Source of the DNA: Terriglobales bacterium
Lineage (GTDB): Bacteria > Acidobacteriota > Terriglobia > Bryobacterales > Bryobacteraceae
DNA length: 64,000 bases
Reading direction: 5' to 3'
Assembly (NCBI GenBank): GCA_027485675.1
Contig: JAIXQP010000009.1
Location: forward strand, 1 to 64,000
Made by a program: the position numbers and the translations under genes. Positions 54,609 through 60,437 of this stretch are shown piece after piece (within the stretch, counting starts at the first letter, position 1; every line of letters starts with the position of its first letter). The notes under the pieces were generated by a model, which was not told where the DNA came from, did no database searches, and saw only the letters and a list, made by a program, of their open reading frames with translations.

Positions 54609-54672
54609 GCAGGGCTGGTGTCCTGAAGATAGCACGACCGGTTACCCGTTCCGCGCATCTACATAGGTGACT

Positions 54673-55512
54673 ATGGCTCCTCTCTGGATGAAGCGTTGGC
54701 TGCTGGCGGCCGGGATTTACAACATTTCCTGGGGGTTGCTGGTGGGATTGTGGCCCAACCTGATGTTCGATTGGGCGGGCATGGAGCGGCCGAACTACCC
54801 GGAGTTGTGGCAGTGCATTGCGATGATCGTGGGGGTGTATGGCGTTGGGTACTCGGCGGCTTCGCTGGATCCGTACCGGCATTGGCCGATTGTTTTGGTG
54901 GGTTTTCTGGGCAAGCTGTTTGGGCCGATCGGCTTTGTGCAGGCGGCGGTGACGGAGCGGTTTTCGTGGTGGTTCGGAATCAACAATGTGACGAACGACC
55001 TGATCTGGCTGATTCCGTTTGCGCTGATTCTGAAGGGTGCGTGGACGGATCGGGGGCCGGTGGGCGACCTGGGGGCGTTTCTGGCGGGGCACCGGAATGC
55101 GTTGGTGGTATTCCTGCGGCACGCGGGGTGTACCTTCTGCCGGGAGACGCTGGCGGACGTGGCGCGGCAGCGGAAGCAGATTGAAGCGGACGGGACGAAG
55201 ATTGTCTTGGTGCACATGGGGGGCTCCGAGGAGTTCTTTGCGCAGTACGGCTTGGCGGACGTGGAGCGGGTGCATGATCCGGAGCGGGCTTTGTATAAGG
55301 CGTTTGGGTTGCAGCGGGGGAGTTTGTGGCAGTTGCTGGGGCCGTCCGTTTGGTGGCGGGGGTTTGGGGCTTGGCGGCAGCACGGGATGGGGTTTTTAGA
55401 GGGCGACGGGTTTCAGATGCCGGGGGCGTTTCTGGTGAAGGGGGGGCGTCTCGTGAAGGAGTATCGCCACGCGACGGCGGGCGACCGGCCGGACTATTGC
55501 CAGCTATCGTAG
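54673..55512 (+). CDS. membrane domain fused to peroxiredoxin-like (SelL-related) redox domain
   Basis: A 279-aa protein. Residues 5-122 form four hydrophobic segments with WAGMERPNYPELWQCIAMIV and HWPIVLVGFLGKLFGPIGF. From about 135 a thioredoxin-fold domain begins, with LRHAGCTFCRETLADVAR carrying C153-x-x-C156 in the AhpC/PRX-like2 (SelL-related) position. It would tether a thiol reductase or peroxidase to the membrane. TACATA at 54660-54665 lies seven bases before ATG 54673; GTG 54667 is an alternative. It leads the hemD-atp operon (four bases to hemD). Confidence 0.8.
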   Translation: MAPLWMKRWLLAAGIYNISWGLLVGLWPNLMFDWAGMERPNYPELWQCIAMIVGVYGVGYSAASLDPYRHWPIVLVGFLGKLFGPIGFVQAAVTERFSWWFGINNVTNDLIWLIPFALILKGAWTDRGPVGDLGAFLAGHRNALVVFLRHAGCTFCRETLADVARQRKQIEADGTKIVLVHMGGSEEFFAQYGLADVERVHDPERALYKAFGLQRGSLWQLLGPSVWWRGFGAWRQHGMGFLEGDGFQMPGAFLVKGGRLVKEYRHATAGDRPDYCQLS

Positions 55513-55516
55513 AAGC

Positions 55517-56329
55517 ATGGGTTTTGACGGCCTTCGGGTTCTGGCGTTAGAGTCGCGCCGCGCGGCGGAGATGGCGGTGCTGGTGGAGAAGAACGGGGGC
55601 GTGGCGACGGTGGCGCCGTCGATGCGGGAGGTGCCGCTCGACGATAATCCGGAGGCGTTTGCGTTTTTCGACCGGCTGCGGGCGGGTGATTTCGATTTGG
55701 TGATCCTGCTGACGGGGGTGGGGACGCGGGCTTTGGATAAGGTGCTCTCGACGAGGTGGCCGGAGGGCGCGCTGGCGGCGGAGTTGCGGAAGTTGCCGGT
55801 GGTGGCGCGGGGTCCGAAGCCGATGGCCGTGCTGCGGGAGTGGAGCGTGCCGGCGGCGGCGATGGCGCCGGAGCCGAACACGTGGCGGGAGTTGATGCAG
55901 GTGATGCGGGGGCGGACGGAGCGGCGCATCGCGGTGCAGGAGTATGGGAAGTCGAACCTGGCTTTGTTGGAGGCGCTGCGGGAACAAGGGGCGGCGGTGA
56001 CGCCGGTGCCGGTGTACCAATGGGCGCTGCCGGAAGACACGGCGCCGCTGCGGGCGGCGGCGCGGGGGTTGGGGGCGGGGGCGTTCGACGTGATTCTGCT
56101 GACGACGTCGATTCAGGTGACGCATCTGCTGCAGGTGGCGGCGGAGGAGGGCGTGGATGTTTTGCCGGCGCTGCGGCGGATGGTGATCGGCTCGATTGGA
56201 CCCACTACAACTGAAGCGCTTGAAGAGATAGGATTAAAGGCCGATATGGAGCCGTCGCACCCGAAGATGGGCATTTTGGTGAAAGACGCCGGGGAACAGG
56301 CGGCGGCGATCCTGGAGGCAAAGCGATGA
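55517..56329 (+). CDS. hemD: uroporphyrinogen-III synthase
   Basis: A 270-aa two-lobed protein with the weakly conserved HemD pattern: LRVLALESRRAAEMAVLVEKNGG, FDLVILLTGVGTRALDKVL, RIAVQEYGKSNLALLEALREQGA, VPVYQWALPEDT, FDVILLTTSIQVTHLLQVA and MVIGSIGPTTTEALEEIGLKADMEPSHPKMGILV. It closes the tetrapyrrole ring in haem and sirohaem synthesis. No other haem synthesis gene is adjacent; instead it precedes an oxidase and a six-haem cytochrome, overlapping the former by four bases. Confidence 0.88.
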   Translation: MGFDGLRVLALESRRAAEMAVLVEKNGGVATVAPSMREVPLDDNPEAFAFFDRLRAGDFDLVILLTGVGTRALDKVLSTRWPEGALAAELRKLPVVARGPKPMAVLREWSVPAAAMAPEPNTWRELMQVMRGRTERRIAVQEYGKSNLALLEALREQGAAVTPVPVYQWALPEDTAPLRAAARGLGAGAFDVILLTTSIQVTHLLQVAAEEGVDVLPALRRMVIGSIGPTTTEALEEIGLKADMEPSHPKMGILVKDAGEQAAAILEAKR

Positions 56330-57468
56330 ATCGGCGCGATCTGGTGAGGAACTTGGTGAGCCTGGCGGCGGGGTCGCCGCTGCTTTCGGCCGAGGTGCCG
56401 GATGATCTCATGGGCCCGATCAACGTGCATGAGTTTGAGGAAGTTGCCAAGCGGAAGATGCACAAGCTGGCTTACGACTTCATCGCCGGGGGCGTGGAGG
56501 ACGAGTACACGCTGCGGGCGAATCGCGAGGCGTACGAGAAGTATGTGCTGCGGCCGCGGGTGATGACCGATGTTTCGAACGTCTCGCTCGAAGTGGACCT
56601 GCTGGGGATGAAGCTCGCCAGTCCGATTCTGATTGCGCCGACGGGGGGCAAAAATCTGGTGCTGGAGAACGCCGATGAGAAGGTGGCGGCGGCGGCCCTG
56701 GCTTCGAAGACGCTGATCTGTTCGGGGACGGGCGTGCAGAAGATTCTGCAGAGCGGGGCTCCGCTTGCGTGGTGGAGCAATACGATTGGCGCGGCGACCA
56801 AGGCGCAGGCGCGGGGTTACGCGCGGCGGATTGAAGACGGCGGCGGGAAGGGGATCACGCTGACGGTGGACAACCAGTATCAGTCGAATCGCGACCGGAA
56901 CAACCGGAACCGGTTTGACTATGGCTACATGCAGACCGGGGTGCCGAAGGACGGCGAGCCGAAGCCGGCGCCGAAGTCTCCGGCGCTGCCGGCGATGTGG
57001 CAGCCGCATACGCCGCAGATGACGTGGGAACAGATTTCGTGGATGAAAGAGGGCGCGAAGATCCCGGTGATTGTGAAGGGCATCATTCATCCGGAGGACG
57101 CGGCGCTGGCCGTGAAGCACGGGGCGGACGCGATCGTCGTTTCGAACCACGGCGGGCGGCAGTTGGACGGGGTGATGGGGACGCTGGAGGCGTTGCCGGA
57201 TTGCGTGGATGCCGTGGGTGGGAAGGTGCCGGTGCTGATGGACGGCGGGCTGCGGCGGGGCACCGATATTCTGAAGGCGATGGCGCTGGGGGCGAAGGCG
57301 GTGTTGGTGGGCCGGGCGCCGTTGTGGGGCTTGGGCGCGTTCGGGCAGCCGGGCGTGGAGCGGGTGCTGTGGATGCTGAACGCGGAGTTGAAGTTGGCGA
57401 TGGCGTTGGCGGGTATGGCGAAGCCGGGTGACATCACGCGGACGATTGTGCGGAGGAAGTTGGCATGA
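56326..57468 (+). CDS. FMN-dependent alpha-hydroxy-acid oxidising protein, probably exported
   Basis: A 380-aa TIM-barrel flavoenzyme of the glycolate/lactate oxidase family. A twin-Arg type N-terminus (NRRDLVRNLVSLAAGSPLLSA) is unusual for the family. Core sites: AYDFIAGGVEDEYTLRAN, LRPRVM, LIAPTGG, TLTVDNQ, IPVIVKGI (Lys) and SNHGGRQLDG (catalytic His and Arg). The position of the YVYKD-type tyrosine reads AWWSNTIG. It probably oxidises a hydroxy acid such as lactate or glycolate. ATGA overlaps at both ends tie it to hemD and the hexaheme cytochrome. Confidence 0.87.
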   Translation: MNRRDLVRNLVSLAAGSPLLSAEVPDDLMGPINVHEFEEVAKRKMHKLAYDFIAGGVEDEYTLRANREAYEKYVLRPRVMTDVSNVSLEVDLLGMKLASPILIAPTGGKNLVLENADEKVAAAALASKTLICSGTGVQKILQSGAPLAWWSNTIGAATKAQARGYARRIEDGGGKGITLTVDNQYQSNRDRNNRNRFDYGYMQTGVPKDGEPKPAPKSPALPAMWQPHTPQMTWEQISWMKEGAKIPVIVKGIIHPEDAALAVKHGADAIVVSNHGGRQLDGVMGTLEALPDCVDAVGGKVPVLMDGGLRRGTDILKAMALGAKAVLVGRAPLWGLGAFGQPGVERVLWMLNAELKLAMALAGMAKPGDITRTIVRRKLA

Positions 57469-57959
57469 TCTGGGTGTTGCTGCTGGTGTTGGGCGCGGTT
57501 GGTTTGGAGGCGCAGCAGGATTGCGCGCCTTGCCATAACGAACAGATCGCGGACTTCGGCAAGCATAAGCACAACACGAAGGCCGGCTTGCAGTGCGGCG
57601 TTTGCCATGGGCCGAGCGATAAACACCGGAAGAGCAACGGGGAGGCGCCGCCGGACCGCGTGGCCGCGCCGGACGAGGTGGCCGGGATGTGCGGGAACTG
57701 CCATTTGCTTGAGAAGAATCAGTACGTCGAGAGCAAGCATCATCACGCGGTGGTGCAGCGGACGGCGAAATCGGCCAACTGCAGCACGTGCCACGGGCAT
57801 CACGATATGAAGGAGTGGACGGCGACGCAGGCGGGTTGCGCGCGGTGCCATACGTCGACGCCGGCGGCTTGCAAGGAGAAGCCGGTGGGGGTGGCGGTGG
57901 CGAAGGTGACGTGCATGAACTGCCACGCGCGGCATACGTTAGCGGTAGCGTCGCGATGA
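57465..57959 (+). CDS. exported hexaheme c-type cytochrome
   Basis: A 164-aa exported protein with six CxxCH motifs in about 140 residues: CAPCH, CGVCH, CGNCH, CSTCH, CARCH and CMNCH, plus extra His residues able to act as distal ligands (KHKHN, KHHH, HGHHD). The signal peptide is MIWVLLLVLGAVGLEAQ. The haem spacing resembles small multihaem electron carriers of the cytochrome c3/c554 type rather than a named enzyme. Likely role: electron transfer across the periplasm from the neighbouring flavoenzyme (inference). It overlaps atpZ by four bases. Confidence 0.9.
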   Translation: MIWVLLLVLGAVGLEAQQDCAPCHNEQIADFGKHKHNTKAGLQCGVCHGPSDKHRKSNGEAPPDRVAAPDEVAGMCGNCHLLEKNQYVESKHHHAVVQRTAKSANCSTCHGHHDMKEWTATQAGCARCHTSTPAACKEKPVGVAVAKVTCMNCHARHTLAVASR

Positions 57960-58183
57960 AGCGGGAACGCAGCGTCGGGCGGATGATCTCCGACTACATG
58001 AATCTGGCGCTGATTTTGCCGGTGAGTGTGGTGGTGGGTTACGGGATTGGCGCGGCGCTGGACCATGTGTTCGGGACGAAGTTCTGGGGCGTGACCTGGC
58101 TGATCGTGGGGGTGATTGCGGGGATGCGCGATCTGATCCGGAAGCTGAACAAAGAGTTTGAGCGGGACATGGAAGAGAAGTGA
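57956..58183 (+). CDS. atpZ: AtpZ/AtpI-like ATP synthase accessory membrane protein
   Basis: A 75-aa protein with two membrane helices (LALILPVSVVVGYGIGAALD and WGVTWLIVGVIAGM) and charged ends (MKRERSVGRM, NKEFERDMEEK). This is the AtpZ pattern of small proteins ahead of F0 operons, thought to aid Mg/Ca transport or ring assembly. ATGA overlaps the cytochrome stop, and its own stop overlaps the next GTG start. Confidence 0.8.
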   Translation: MKRERSVGRMISDYMNLALILPVSVVVGYGIGAALDHVFGTKFWGVTWLIVGVIAGMRDLIRKLNKEFERDMEEK

Positions 58184-58533
58184 CGGACTACGCGGGATTG
58201 GTGCGGCGGTTGGAGTGGGGCATTGCGGGGTGGGGCGTGGTGTTCGCGGCGGTGGCGGGGATGGGTTGGGGCGGATTGGCGGCGCTGGGGGTGGCGATGG
58301 GCGCCGGGGCGGCGTGGGCGAATTTCCGGTGGCTGGAGCGGGCGTTCGCGCGGCCGGAGCCGGCCAGCGCGGGGTTATTGGGCCTGCGGTTAGCCGTGCT
58401 GGGGGCGGTGGGCTATGTTATGCTGAAGGTATTTGCGGTTACCCCTGTCACGTTCCTGGTGGGACTGTTGACCGCTGCGGCAGCAGCGCTGGGGGAAGCG
58501 CTCTACCAACTGATCTATGCACGAATCTCATGA
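58180..58533 (+). CDS. atpI: ATP synthase subunit I-like membrane protein
   Basis: A 117-aa protein with four hydrophobic segments (WGIAGWGVVFAAVAGMGWGG, LAALGVAMGAGAAWANFRWL, LRLAVLGAVGYVMLKVFAV, FLVGLLTAAAAALGEALYQL). Length, position between atpZ and atpB, and the NFRWL motif after the second helix fit ATP synthase protein I, a c-ring assembly factor. The GTG start overlaps the atpZ stop, and its end overlaps atpB by 17 bases. Confidence 0.72.
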   Translation: MTDYAGLVRRLEWGIAGWGVVFAAVAGMGWGGLAALGVAMGAGAAWANFRWLERAFARPEPASAGLLGLRLAVLGAVGYVMLKVFAVTPVTFLVGLLTAAAAALGEALYQLIYARIS

Positions 58534-59248
58534 GCTCTGGCTCACCGCCCTCTTCAACGACCACTTGGCCGGGCTCGGCAACTCGATTCTTTCGGCGGTG
58601 GGTTTACAAACCCACGCGCGGCCCTGGGCCAACTACATCACCATGGAGATCCTGGTGGCGTTTTTCATCGTGATTCTGTTCACGATTGCCAAGAGCTCGT
58701 TTTCGATGACGGCGCCGGGCAAGTTGCAGCACGTTCTGGAGGCGACCTACGAGTTCCTCTACGAGCAGGCGCACGACAACATCCACGAGGGCTACAAGAA
58801 GTACATTCCGATTGCCGGGACGTTTTTCCTGTTCGTCCTGTTCTCGAATCTGTTAGGCGTGATTCCGAGCTTTGAATCGCCGACGATGTATCCGTATGTG
58901 CCGGCGGGAATAGCGCTGCTTGCGTTTCTGTACTACAACATCCAGGGCCTGCGGGCGCACGGCGGCAGCTACATTCATCAGTTTCTCGGTCCCGTGTGGT
59001 GGTTGTGGCCGTTGATGTTCCCGATTGAGCTCGTCAGCCACGCCGCCCGCCCGATTTCGTTGACGATTCGTCTGTTCGCCAATATGTTCGCTGGCGAGCA
59101 GGTGACGCTGGTCTTCCTCGGCCTGGTGCCGCTGGTGGTTCCCGTGGCTTTCATGGGACTGCACGTTTTCGTTTCTGTGATTCAGGCTTATGTTTTTGCC
59201 CTGCTGACGCTGATCTACATTGGCGCGGCGGTGGGCGACGAGCACTAA
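58517..59248 (+). CDS. atpB: F0 ATP synthase subunit a
   Basis: A 243-aa membrane subunit of the proton/ion channel. Conserved sites: FLFVLFSNLLGVIPSF, the essential stator Arg in RPISLTIRLFANMFAGEQ, and the C-terminal LHVFVSVIQAYVFALLTLIYIGAAV. It forms the ion half-channels against the c-ring. The ATG lies within the atpI 3' end. A 106-base gap separates it from atpE; the gap holds no gene and only the atpE ribosome site is obvious. Confidence 0.94.
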   Translation: MHESHELWLTALFNDHLAGLGNSILSAVGLQTHARPWANYITMEILVAFFIVILFTIAKSSFSMTAPGKLQHVLEATYEFLYEQAHDNIHEGYKKYIPIAGTFFLFVLFSNLLGVIPSFESPTMYPYVPAGIALLAFLYYNIQGLRAHGGSYIHQFLGPVWWLWPLMFPIELVSHAARPISLTIRLFANMFAGEQVTLVFLGLVPLVVPVAFMGLHVFVSVIQAYVFALLTLIYIGAAVGDEH

Positions 59249-59354
59249 AGGTTTTCATTCGGCATTACCCCGCGCCAGTGTGAGCCCTCCCCGTCCCAAC
59301 GGAGGAACGGAACCACCTCCTGAGCGCAATTTATACCCAAGGAGCAACACCCCA

Positions 59355-59633
59355 ATGTTCGGAAAAATGTTCGTTCTGGCCTTCGTATTGATGGCCTTCG
59401 CGATCCCCTCGATGGCTGCCGACGGCGGCATCGTTCTCACCAGCGCGTTCTCGATGGCGATTGCCTCGGGCCTTTGCGCTCTCGGCCAGGGCAAGGCGAT
59501 TGCCGGCGCTGTCGAAGCCATTGCGCGGAACCCTGGCGCGGCTACGGCCATCCGTGGTCTCGGCCTGCTCGGCATCGTCTTCATCGAGTCGCTGGCGCTG
59601 TTCACCCTCGTTATCGTTTTCGCGAAGGGCTAA
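59355..59633 (+). CDS. atpE: F0 ATP synthase subunit c
   Basis: A 92-aa c-subunit. A leader-like N-terminus (MFVLAFVLMAFAIPSMA) precedes the two-helix hairpin. The loop is EAIARNP and the ion-binding carboxylate is E78 in VFIESLALFTLV. Q45 (LGQGKA) and S79 align with sodium ligands of sodium-type rings, but the Thr and Tyr that complete that site are Leu80 and Phe83. AAGGAG lies nine bases before ATG 59355. A strong hairpin terminator follows, so the b, delta and F1 subunits must be elsewhere. Confidence 0.93.
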   Translation: MFGKMFVLAFVLMAFAIPSMAADGGIVLTSAFSMAIASGLCALGQGKAIAGAVEAIARNPGAATAIRGLGLLGIVFIESLALFTLVIVFAKG

Positions 59634-59690: not shown

Positions 59691-60437
59691 ATGCTGAAAA
59701 TTCAGGGCATTCTCGTTCCGGTTTCGACTCCGTTTGATCATCGCGGCGATGTCTATAAAGCCAAGCTGAAGAGTAACGTTGAGCGGCTGAATGCGATCAG
59801 CCTGGCCGGTTATGTGGCAGGCGATCCGTTGCTGACGGCCGAAGAGAAGGCGCTGGTGTGGGAGTTGGTGGCGGCGAGCGCGAAGCCGGGGAAGCTGTTG
59901 GGCGCGGCGGCATCGGCGCCGAGTGTACGGGAGACGGTGGCCTTGGCGAATCGCGCGGCGGAGTTGGGATATCAGTTCGCGTTGGTGCGGGCCGCGACGG
60001 AGTATGCCGGGGAGACGCGGTCGCTTTATTACCGGGCCGTCGCGGACGGGGCTCGGATTCCCGTGGTGGTGGACGGAGAGCCGGCGCCGGAGCATCCGAA
60101 CATTTTGCGGCTGGCGTTGACGCAGGATTCGGCGAACCTGTTCGCGGCGTTCAAGTCCGGCGCCGGGGCGGCGCTGGTGGCCGTGGCGAACGCGATTCCC
60201 TATTCGGTGCAACTGATCTGGGAGGCCTACCGGCAGCGCGAGGACGAGGCCGGCCTAGACTGGCAGGAGCGGATCCGGCCACTGGTGGCGCTGGTAGAGG
60301 CGCACGGAGTGGCGGCGTTGAAGTGCGCGATGGATTTCAATAGCTACTATGGCGGGGCGCCACGGCTGCCGTTTACGCCGGTCGCCGAGTGGATCAAGCC
60401 GTTGATTACGGCGGCGCTGCACGATCTCAAGAGTTGA
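59691..60437 (+). CDS. DapA-like (dihydrodipicolinate synthase family) protein lacking catalytic residues
   Basis: A 248-aa TIM barrel related to DHDPS/N-acetylneuraminate lyase, about 40-50 residues shorter than active enzymes. The fold-typical start GILVPVSTPFDHRGDVY and LTAEEKALVWELV are present. However, the GTTGE-type loop reads YVAGDPLL, the YNVP segment with the proton-relay Tyr reads VVVDGEPA, and no Lys occupies the Schiff-base strand. It is probably not an aldolase and may be a binding or regulatory relative. It starts 13 bases after the atpE terminator hairpin. Confidence 0.72.
   Translation: MLKIQGILVPVSTPFDHRGDVYKAKLKSNVERLNAISLAGYVAGDPLLTAEEKALVWELVAASAKPGKLLGAAASAPSVRETVALANRAAELGYQFALVRAATEYAGETRSLYYRAVADGARIPVVVDGEPAPEHPNILRLALTQDSANLFAAFKSGAGAALVAVANAIPYSVQLIWEAYRQREDEAGLDWQERIRPLVALVEAHGVAALKCAMDFNSYYGGAPRLPFTPVAEWIKPLITAALHDLKS

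Follow-up and report, generated by a model that had tools for sequence, protein, structure and literature searches.

A conserved pair of flavoenzyme and six-CXXCH cytochrome genes beside ATP synthase genes in an Acidobacteriota genome

Near one end of a 64,000-nucleotide stretch of DNA from a Terriglobales bacterium of the phylum Acidobacteriota (assembly GCA_027485675.1, contig JAIXQP010000009.1, positions 1 to 64,000 of the forward strand; here called the window), a gene for an enzyme resembling dehydrogenases of 2-hydroxy acids that depend on flavin mononucleotide (FMN) is followed directly by a gene for a small c-type cytochrome with six CXXCH motifs. Both genes lie between a hemD-like gene and several genes of an ATP synthase, all on the same strand, in a genome of 6.59 Mb. 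At the centre stand the flavoenzyme and the cytochrome, which together form a probable redox module of two genes with the following features.

56326..57468, + strand: FMN-dependent 2-hydroxyacid dehydrogenase-like flavoenzyme with a twin-arginine leader (PF01070, FMN_dh, 335.7 bits; glycolate-oxidase fold; active-site residues tabulated across relatives)
56326..56397, + strand: putative exported leader of the twin-arginine translocation (Tat) type, MNRRDLVRNLVSLAAGSPLLSAEV, of the flavoenzyme (invariance of R3 and R4; hydropathy)
57465..57959, + strand: six-CXXCH c-type cytochrome with a Sec-like leader (PF14522, Cytochrome_C7, 32.4 bits, cut-off 24.8)

The flavoenzyme is 380 residues long, and the FMN_dh domain, whose curated cut-off is 24.9 bits, spans residues 41 to 376, with the haem protein encoded by a separate gene. 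Its predicted model (predicted local distance difference test, pLDDT, 86.1) matches the glycolate-oxidase fold of 1gox in Foldseek at E 1.5e-29, and a Pfam scan, which found FMN_dh, returned no fumarate-reductase model at E 0.001. The cut-offs of function-specific NCBIfam models were missed by far, namely those for L-lactate dehydrogenase PRK11197 (215 of 376 bits), LldD (189.1 of 550), L-lactate oxidase (200.7 of 645.5) and MftD (TIGR03966, 201.2 of 470.85).

Relatives were compared within the window's own flavoenzyme subfamily (W), which comprises 49 distinct members including the window's own after identical copies had been dropped; residue numbers follow glycolate oxidase (GOX). Asp157, Arg164, Lys230, His254 and Arg257 are retained in all 49. 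Tyr129 occurs in none of them, its position being taken by Thr (38), Gly (6), Val (3), Asn (1) or Ser (1), and position 24 is Phe in 47 of the 48 determinable members, with Tyr in L069 alone; the window enzyme carries Thr and Phe at these two sites. Furthermore, Trp108 is absent and position 109 is a gap throughout (49/49), and Gln127 is kept in two members. A study on p-hydroxymandelate oxidase describes the family tyrosine at 129 as forming a catalytic dyad with histidine, and reports that the R163A, R255A and H252F mutants lost activity and that Y128F remained active, turning into an O2-requiring four-electron oxidative decarboxylase (PMC6677016); Tyr128 of that enzyme equals GOX Tyr129 in our own reading. 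Lactate and glycolate, which a sequence-only reading of the window had put forward as substrates, are doubtful ones to judge from the alignment, because Tyr129 and nearly always Tyr24, the canonical tyrosines, are missing. The neighbouring genes did not supply another name. An alignment that joined the window flavoenzyme to 67 neighbour open reading frames (ORFs; 68 proteins in all) from 12 of 18 loci, for which 133 ORFs were listed altogether, gave GFO/IDH/MocA (4/68) and esterase (3/68) as the most frequent of the 25 commonest families, out of 129 matched, and naming a substrate from such recurrences was abandoned.

The cytochrome holds six CXXCH motifs in 164 residues, each of which would bind a haem, and its PF14522 score places it above the threshold for multihaem cytochromes of the c7/c3 class. 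Its best sequence match in the PDB has an E value of 0.12, and the DmsE-like model TIGR03508, with its cut-off of 192.2, gave 32.8 bits. Six CXXCH motifs are found in the cytochromes of the window and of 40 other loci. Among 34 aligned cytochromes all 18 CXXCH positions are invariant, as are ten further positions, six of which are histidines (H34, H36, H54, H92, H113 and H157); this is the count needed for the second ligands of six bis-histidine haems, and the residues may serve as such. What had been called a periplasmic six-haem cytochrome is supported as a six-CXXCH c-type cytochrome, with haem attachment predicted.

The pairing of the two genes extends well beyond the window, to a number of bacteria from soil and freshwater. 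A six-CXXCH gene lies directly downstream of the flavoenzyme in 41 of the 49 W members; one further member has a broken copy and seven have no cytochrome. Of the 41 junctions, 34 show a stop/start overlap of exactly 4 bases and the other seven fall between -10 and +5 bases, the start codon chosen in each case being the one nearest to the flavoenzyme stop. As a base rate, 39 of 754 other long stop-to-stop frames (73 loci) have an ORF with at least three CXXCH motifs in the 1.46 kb after them. At L048, the locus with the broken copy, the gene is interrupted after three CXXCH motifs, as a pseudogene or an assembly error.

The pair does not depend on a particular setting. Counts of neighbour linkage and a quick tree were based on 48 W members of sufficient length, with 4 outgroup rows added to the tree. 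The pair occurs without adjoining hemD or atp genes in 16 of the 48, and together with both in 17. In a tblastn survey of eleven window proteins against 77 fetched loci, the full order SelL, hemD, FMN, cytochrome, atpZ, atpI, atpB, atpE recurs where the flavoenzyme is 87-97% identical, SelL-like tblastn matches (E 1e-3) are limited to loci where it is at least 87% identical, and more distant loci often retain the flavoenzyme and cytochrome alone. Conservation of the neighbourhood reaches beyond one strain: it covers the window's genus and, in part, several other genus codes. The tree requires a minimum of five changes for hemD, six for atp and four for the cytochrome; none of the earliest-branching rows (L069, L066, L105 and L104) has hemD before the flavoenzyme, and L066 and L104 also lack atp, the presence of which could not be judged for L069 and L105. 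Because of these linkage counts and early branches, the pair appears independent of its hemD-atp setting and is perhaps older than it.

The 37 loci of a sister subfamily (S), whose enzymes share about 37-46% identity with that of the window, all retain Tyr24 and likewise lack Tyr129 (Thr in 34, Asn in 3). Downstream of the S enzyme, in 20 of the 36 loci with room, including L113, L071, L115, L127 and L217, stands a different cytochrome with four CXXCH motifs and an N-terminal extra domain, sometimes after another gene, which in a few cases is beta-propeller-like. Such a propeller-like gene was seen after the flavoenzyme at L111:4968-5753, L116, L117, L210 and L215 (HPNGLE motif, 5/37 loci), and that of L111, the one examined, has weak similarity to Vgb lyase and SMP-30, below the cut-offs. 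Among relatives that keep Tyr129, sampled mostly from the phylum search described below, none of the 33 distinct genes with room is followed by a multihaem ORF; at one of their loci, L120, a four-CXXCH ORF lies upstream instead. A downstream cytochrome was thus found in 62 of 86 rows where Tyr129 is lost and in 0 of 34 where it is kept (Fisher, p 1.4e-14, after exclusion of 5 rows that hold fragments and 3 whose downstream sequence is too short), but since W, S and the Tyr129 set each occupy one side of a branch, and Tyr129 was lost once on the tree, the association represents one event, the p value overstates it, and its use as strong proof was set aside. A recount by distinct genes gives 62/85 and 0/33 (L090 and L106 being second readings), the p value referring to the 86/34 counts.

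The flavoenzyme is probably exported through Tat. Its twin arginines, R3 and R4, do not vary among the 43 aligned proteins, a set drawn from both subfamilies and including the Tyr129-bearing relative L120, and 47 of 48 W members show RR or KR and then a stretch that closes with SPL, the exception being clipped by a contig end; the twin-Arg type leader noticed from the sequence alone is borne out to this extent. Within eight residues after SPL, 34 of the 47 have AQ, AE, AA or AD. In these 47 members the mean hydropathy of the 14 residues ending in SPL is 1.06; internal stretches average -0.13, and 6.8% of them reach the leader value. Genes for TatC and for cytochrome c assembly are present in the window genome.

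Matches of the W type (E < 1e-110) occur in 40 of 150 genomes of the order, one in each. In a draw of 396 genomes across the phylum (cut-off 1e-60), 31 had a match; apart from the window's own genome, identities stayed at or below 44%, which indicates no W orthologue in that draw. S-type enzymes with a four-CXXCH ORF downstream were found in three genomes of one other family. A W-type flavoenzyme without a cytochrome also sits on a contig labelled Limisphaerales, outside Acidobacteriota (L105), which may reflect transfer or mis-binning. Within the literature covered, comprising titles and the beginnings of abstracts, the flavoenzyme-cytochrome pair is not described.

The explanation that we favour, with moderate confidence and on sequence grounds, is that a Tat-exported FMN dehydrogenase of a hydroxy acid passes electrons to its own six-haem cytochrome. 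The flavoenzyme would fold with FMN in the cytoplasm and then leave via Tat. Outside the cytoplasm it would oxidize a 2-hydroxy acid, or a similar carboxylate held by Arg164 and Arg257, with His254 and Asp157 serving the oxidation. The FMN would then give its electrons singly to the co-translated cytochrome, its presumed physical partner, and the latter would relay them to the respiratory chain or to an outside acceptor. The hemD-like gene and atpZIBE would take part as nothing other than lineage-specific operon neighbours. An unlikely extension of this scheme concerns the entire clade: natural FMN hydroxy-acid enzymes would have lost the catalytic tyrosine and gained dedicated exported multihaem cytochromes in place of oxygen, different ones in each sister branch; their chemistry may be non-canonical, for example four-electron oxidative decarboxylation, and electrons from organic acids would flow directly into periplasmic haem wires.

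Several observations weigh against the explanation that we favour. The hydrophobic part of the flavoenzyme leader is short, and because the Pfam TAT_signal model gave no match on the first 40 residues, export is something that we infer. The AlphaFold model of the cytochrome is weak (pLDDT 67.7), and Foldseek found no match for it in the PDB better than E 2.8. Seven of the 49 W members lack a cytochrome, as do 16 of the 36 S loci with room; some of the 49 are near-identical strains and hence not independent, and the loss of Tyr129 counts as one change, as explained above. No clue to the substrate emerged among the 25 commonest neighbour families. Finally, 20 atpB regions were picked for comparison from genomes without the flavoenzyme at that place, and in two of them a cytochrome lies near atpZ in its absence: L168 is near a contig end, and L167 is a real exception, where a six-CXXCH cytochrome (L167:5905-6396; G012, a 99% complete genome) overlaps atpZ with no flavoenzyme upstream.

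The same two proteins could also work in reverse, the cytochrome delivering electrons to a flavoenzyme that reduces an oxo acid or another acceptor outside the cytoplasm, like methacrylate reductase. Mrd receives electrons from the tetrahaem cytochrome Mcc (PMC4427408), and the altered FMN pocket, with Gln127 in 2 of 49 members, could shift the flavin potential. We nevertheless regard this direction of electron flow as rather improbable, given that the characterized FMN_dh members oxidize hydroxy acids, as stated in PMC6677016 and PMC10153336. The catalytic base His254, moreover, is kept in 49 of 49.

Pre-mycofactocin synthase MftD, a member of the same family, modifies a peptide or cofactor, and the flavoenzyme might do likewise, with the cytochrome merely disposing of the electrons. 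The lost tyrosines of the substrate pocket do suggest a different substrate, and TIGR03966 is the second-best NCBIfam model; its 201.2 bits are, however, far from the MftD cut-off, and no mycofactocin-type family is among the 25 commonest of the 129 neighbour families, which is a weak test that covers part of the loci. We give this role little credence. Comparably little speaks for a cytoplasmic flavoenzyme whose pairing is an accident of operon structure. The Tat call is based on motif and hydropathy, and the seven members without a cytochrome would fit such a view, but the twin arginines are invariant while the rest of the leader varies, and the pairing survives rearrangements with its 4-base overlap in 34 of 41 junctions.

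The remaining genes of the cluster flank the pair as follows.

54667..55512, + strand: SelL-related redox protein with an N-terminal extension (NF040769, 131.1 bits, cut-off 120)
55517..56329, + strand: HemD (uroporphyrinogen-III synthase)-like paralogue (PF02602, HEM4, 125.6 bits)
57956..58183, + strand: AtpZ-like, general ATP synthase gene (PF09527, ATPase_gene1, 38.1 bits, cut-off 26.6)
58180..58533, + strand: AtpI-like, general ATP synthase gene (PF03899, ATP-synt_I, 23.2 bits, slightly below the cut-off of 25.1; precedes atpB)
58517..59248, + strand: AtpB, F0 a-subunit (PF00119, ATP-synt_A, 177.4 bits)
59355..59633, + strand: AtpE, F0 c-subunit (PF00137, ATP-synt_C, 42.7 bits)

The ATG at 54673, at which the sequence-only reading began, lies inside the SelL-like ORF. 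The ORF coordinates agree with the overlaps of 4-17 bases described there from hemD to atpB: they measure 4 bases at the hemD-like/FMN dehydrogenase, FMN dehydrogenase/cytochrome, cytochrome/atpZ and atpZ/atpI junctions and 17 at atpI/atpB. A gap of 106 bases follows atpB, and atpE therefore stands outside the overlapping chain. Downstream of atpE is a gene resembling dihydrodipicolinate synthase (DHDPS; 59691-60437), as in 15 of the 20 other atp regions, and at L179, in one genome, two ORFs separate atpI from atpB.

Two HEM4 matches were found in the window genome. The stronger one (201.8 bits, against 125.6 for the window copy) is a fusion of tetrapyrrole methylase (SUMT) and HemD in a ccsA-like/hemA/hemC cluster, that is, with genes for cytochrome c assembly, glutamyl-tRNA reductase and porphobilinogen deaminase. 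The two HemD copies are 30-32% identical over stretches of about 100 residues. Being neither the sole copy nor part of a haem-pathway cluster, the window gene does not qualify as the housekeeping one; it is a second, divergent HemD-like paralogue and probably not a functional part of the pair, and the suggestion that it adds haem capacity was discarded in view of the higher-scoring fusion elsewhere. It precedes the flavoenzyme in 19 of 47 determinable W members, and in eight of the 20 other atp regions (L169, L170, L172 and L176-L180) hemD adjoins atpZ without the pair.

The proposal that F0 is a dedicated partner of the pair fared no better. Because one atpB match was found in the window genome, and the one atpF match lies on another contig, the window F0 most likely belongs to the general ATP synthase of the cell. 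Linkage of the flavoenzyme gene to atp could be judged in 42 W members: 22 show it and 20, including L066 and L104, do not, and 17 of these 20 carry the cytochrome. In light of this partial linkage, the second hemD and the one atpB, the hemD-like gene and atpZIBE look like separable, lineage-specific operon neighbours and not like links of a dedicated chain. That the whole cluster from hemD to atpE is one respiratory operon, in which external oxidation of lactate or glycolate feeds a co-expressed F0 and hemD boosts haem supply, is consistent with the overlapping, co-directional genes from hemD to atpB and with the 17 of 48 members that carry hemD, cytochrome and atp together, but is very unlikely and was set aside on gene order and the single atpB found, quite apart from the higher-scoring hemD elsewhere, the hemD-atpZ junctions without the pair and the lost canonical tyrosines.

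The role of Tyr129 could readily be tested on a natural lineage that lacks it, is probably exported and comes with multihaem cytochromes as partners. The pair would also add an entry point for organic acids to the haem networks of the little-cultured Acidobacteriota. Labels such as lactate dehydrogenase are unsafe for these genes.

Compared with known systems, the window flavoenzyme shares with glycolate oxidase and hydroxyacid oxidase 1 the fold and residues 157, 164, 230, 254 and 257, and differs from them in its twin-Arg leader and in not keeping Tyr24, Trp108, Tyr129 and, nearly always, Gln127. The window cytochrome resembles DmsE-like and c7/c3-class cytochromes in being small, CXXCH-rich and of the c type, and exceeds the PF14522 cut-off; unlike the DmsE-like proteins, it has six motifs in 164 residues and scores far below the TIGR03508 cut-off. 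Flavocytochrome b2 of yeast, which is located in the mitochondrial intermembrane space, is like the window pair in that an FMN_dh enzyme passes hydroxy-acid electrons to haem, and its Tyr254 and Tyr143 are what we take to be the equivalents of the tyrosines replaced in the window flavoenzyme. In contrast to b2, the haem protein here is separate and a six-CXXCH c-type cytochrome, with no fused haem domain. PMC10153336 names b2 as an L-lactate cytochrome c oxidoreductase. The Y128F variant of p-hydroxymandelate oxidase parallels the window enzyme in dispensing with that tyrosine and keeping the Arg/His/Arg set (PMC6677016); that variant is engineered and O2-dependent, whereas the enzymes described here are natural, with changes also at 24, 108/109 and 127 and a cytochrome as neighbour.

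The arrangement of adjacent flavoprotein and multihaem cytochrome genes recurs in Mrd/Mcc of Geobacter sulfurreducens AM-1, a two-gene operon (PMC4427408) whose products, a periplasmic flavoprotein and its multihaem cytochrome, have signal peptides of different types. The relatives of Mrd are periplasmic fumarate and urocanate reductases, and it works as a reductase itself, whereas the window flavoprotein belongs to FMN_dh, and Mcc has four haem motifs as opposed to six in the window cytochrome. Mrd/Mcc is thus the nearest working analogue of the arrangement, and flavocytochrome b2 is the nearest relative in chemistry.

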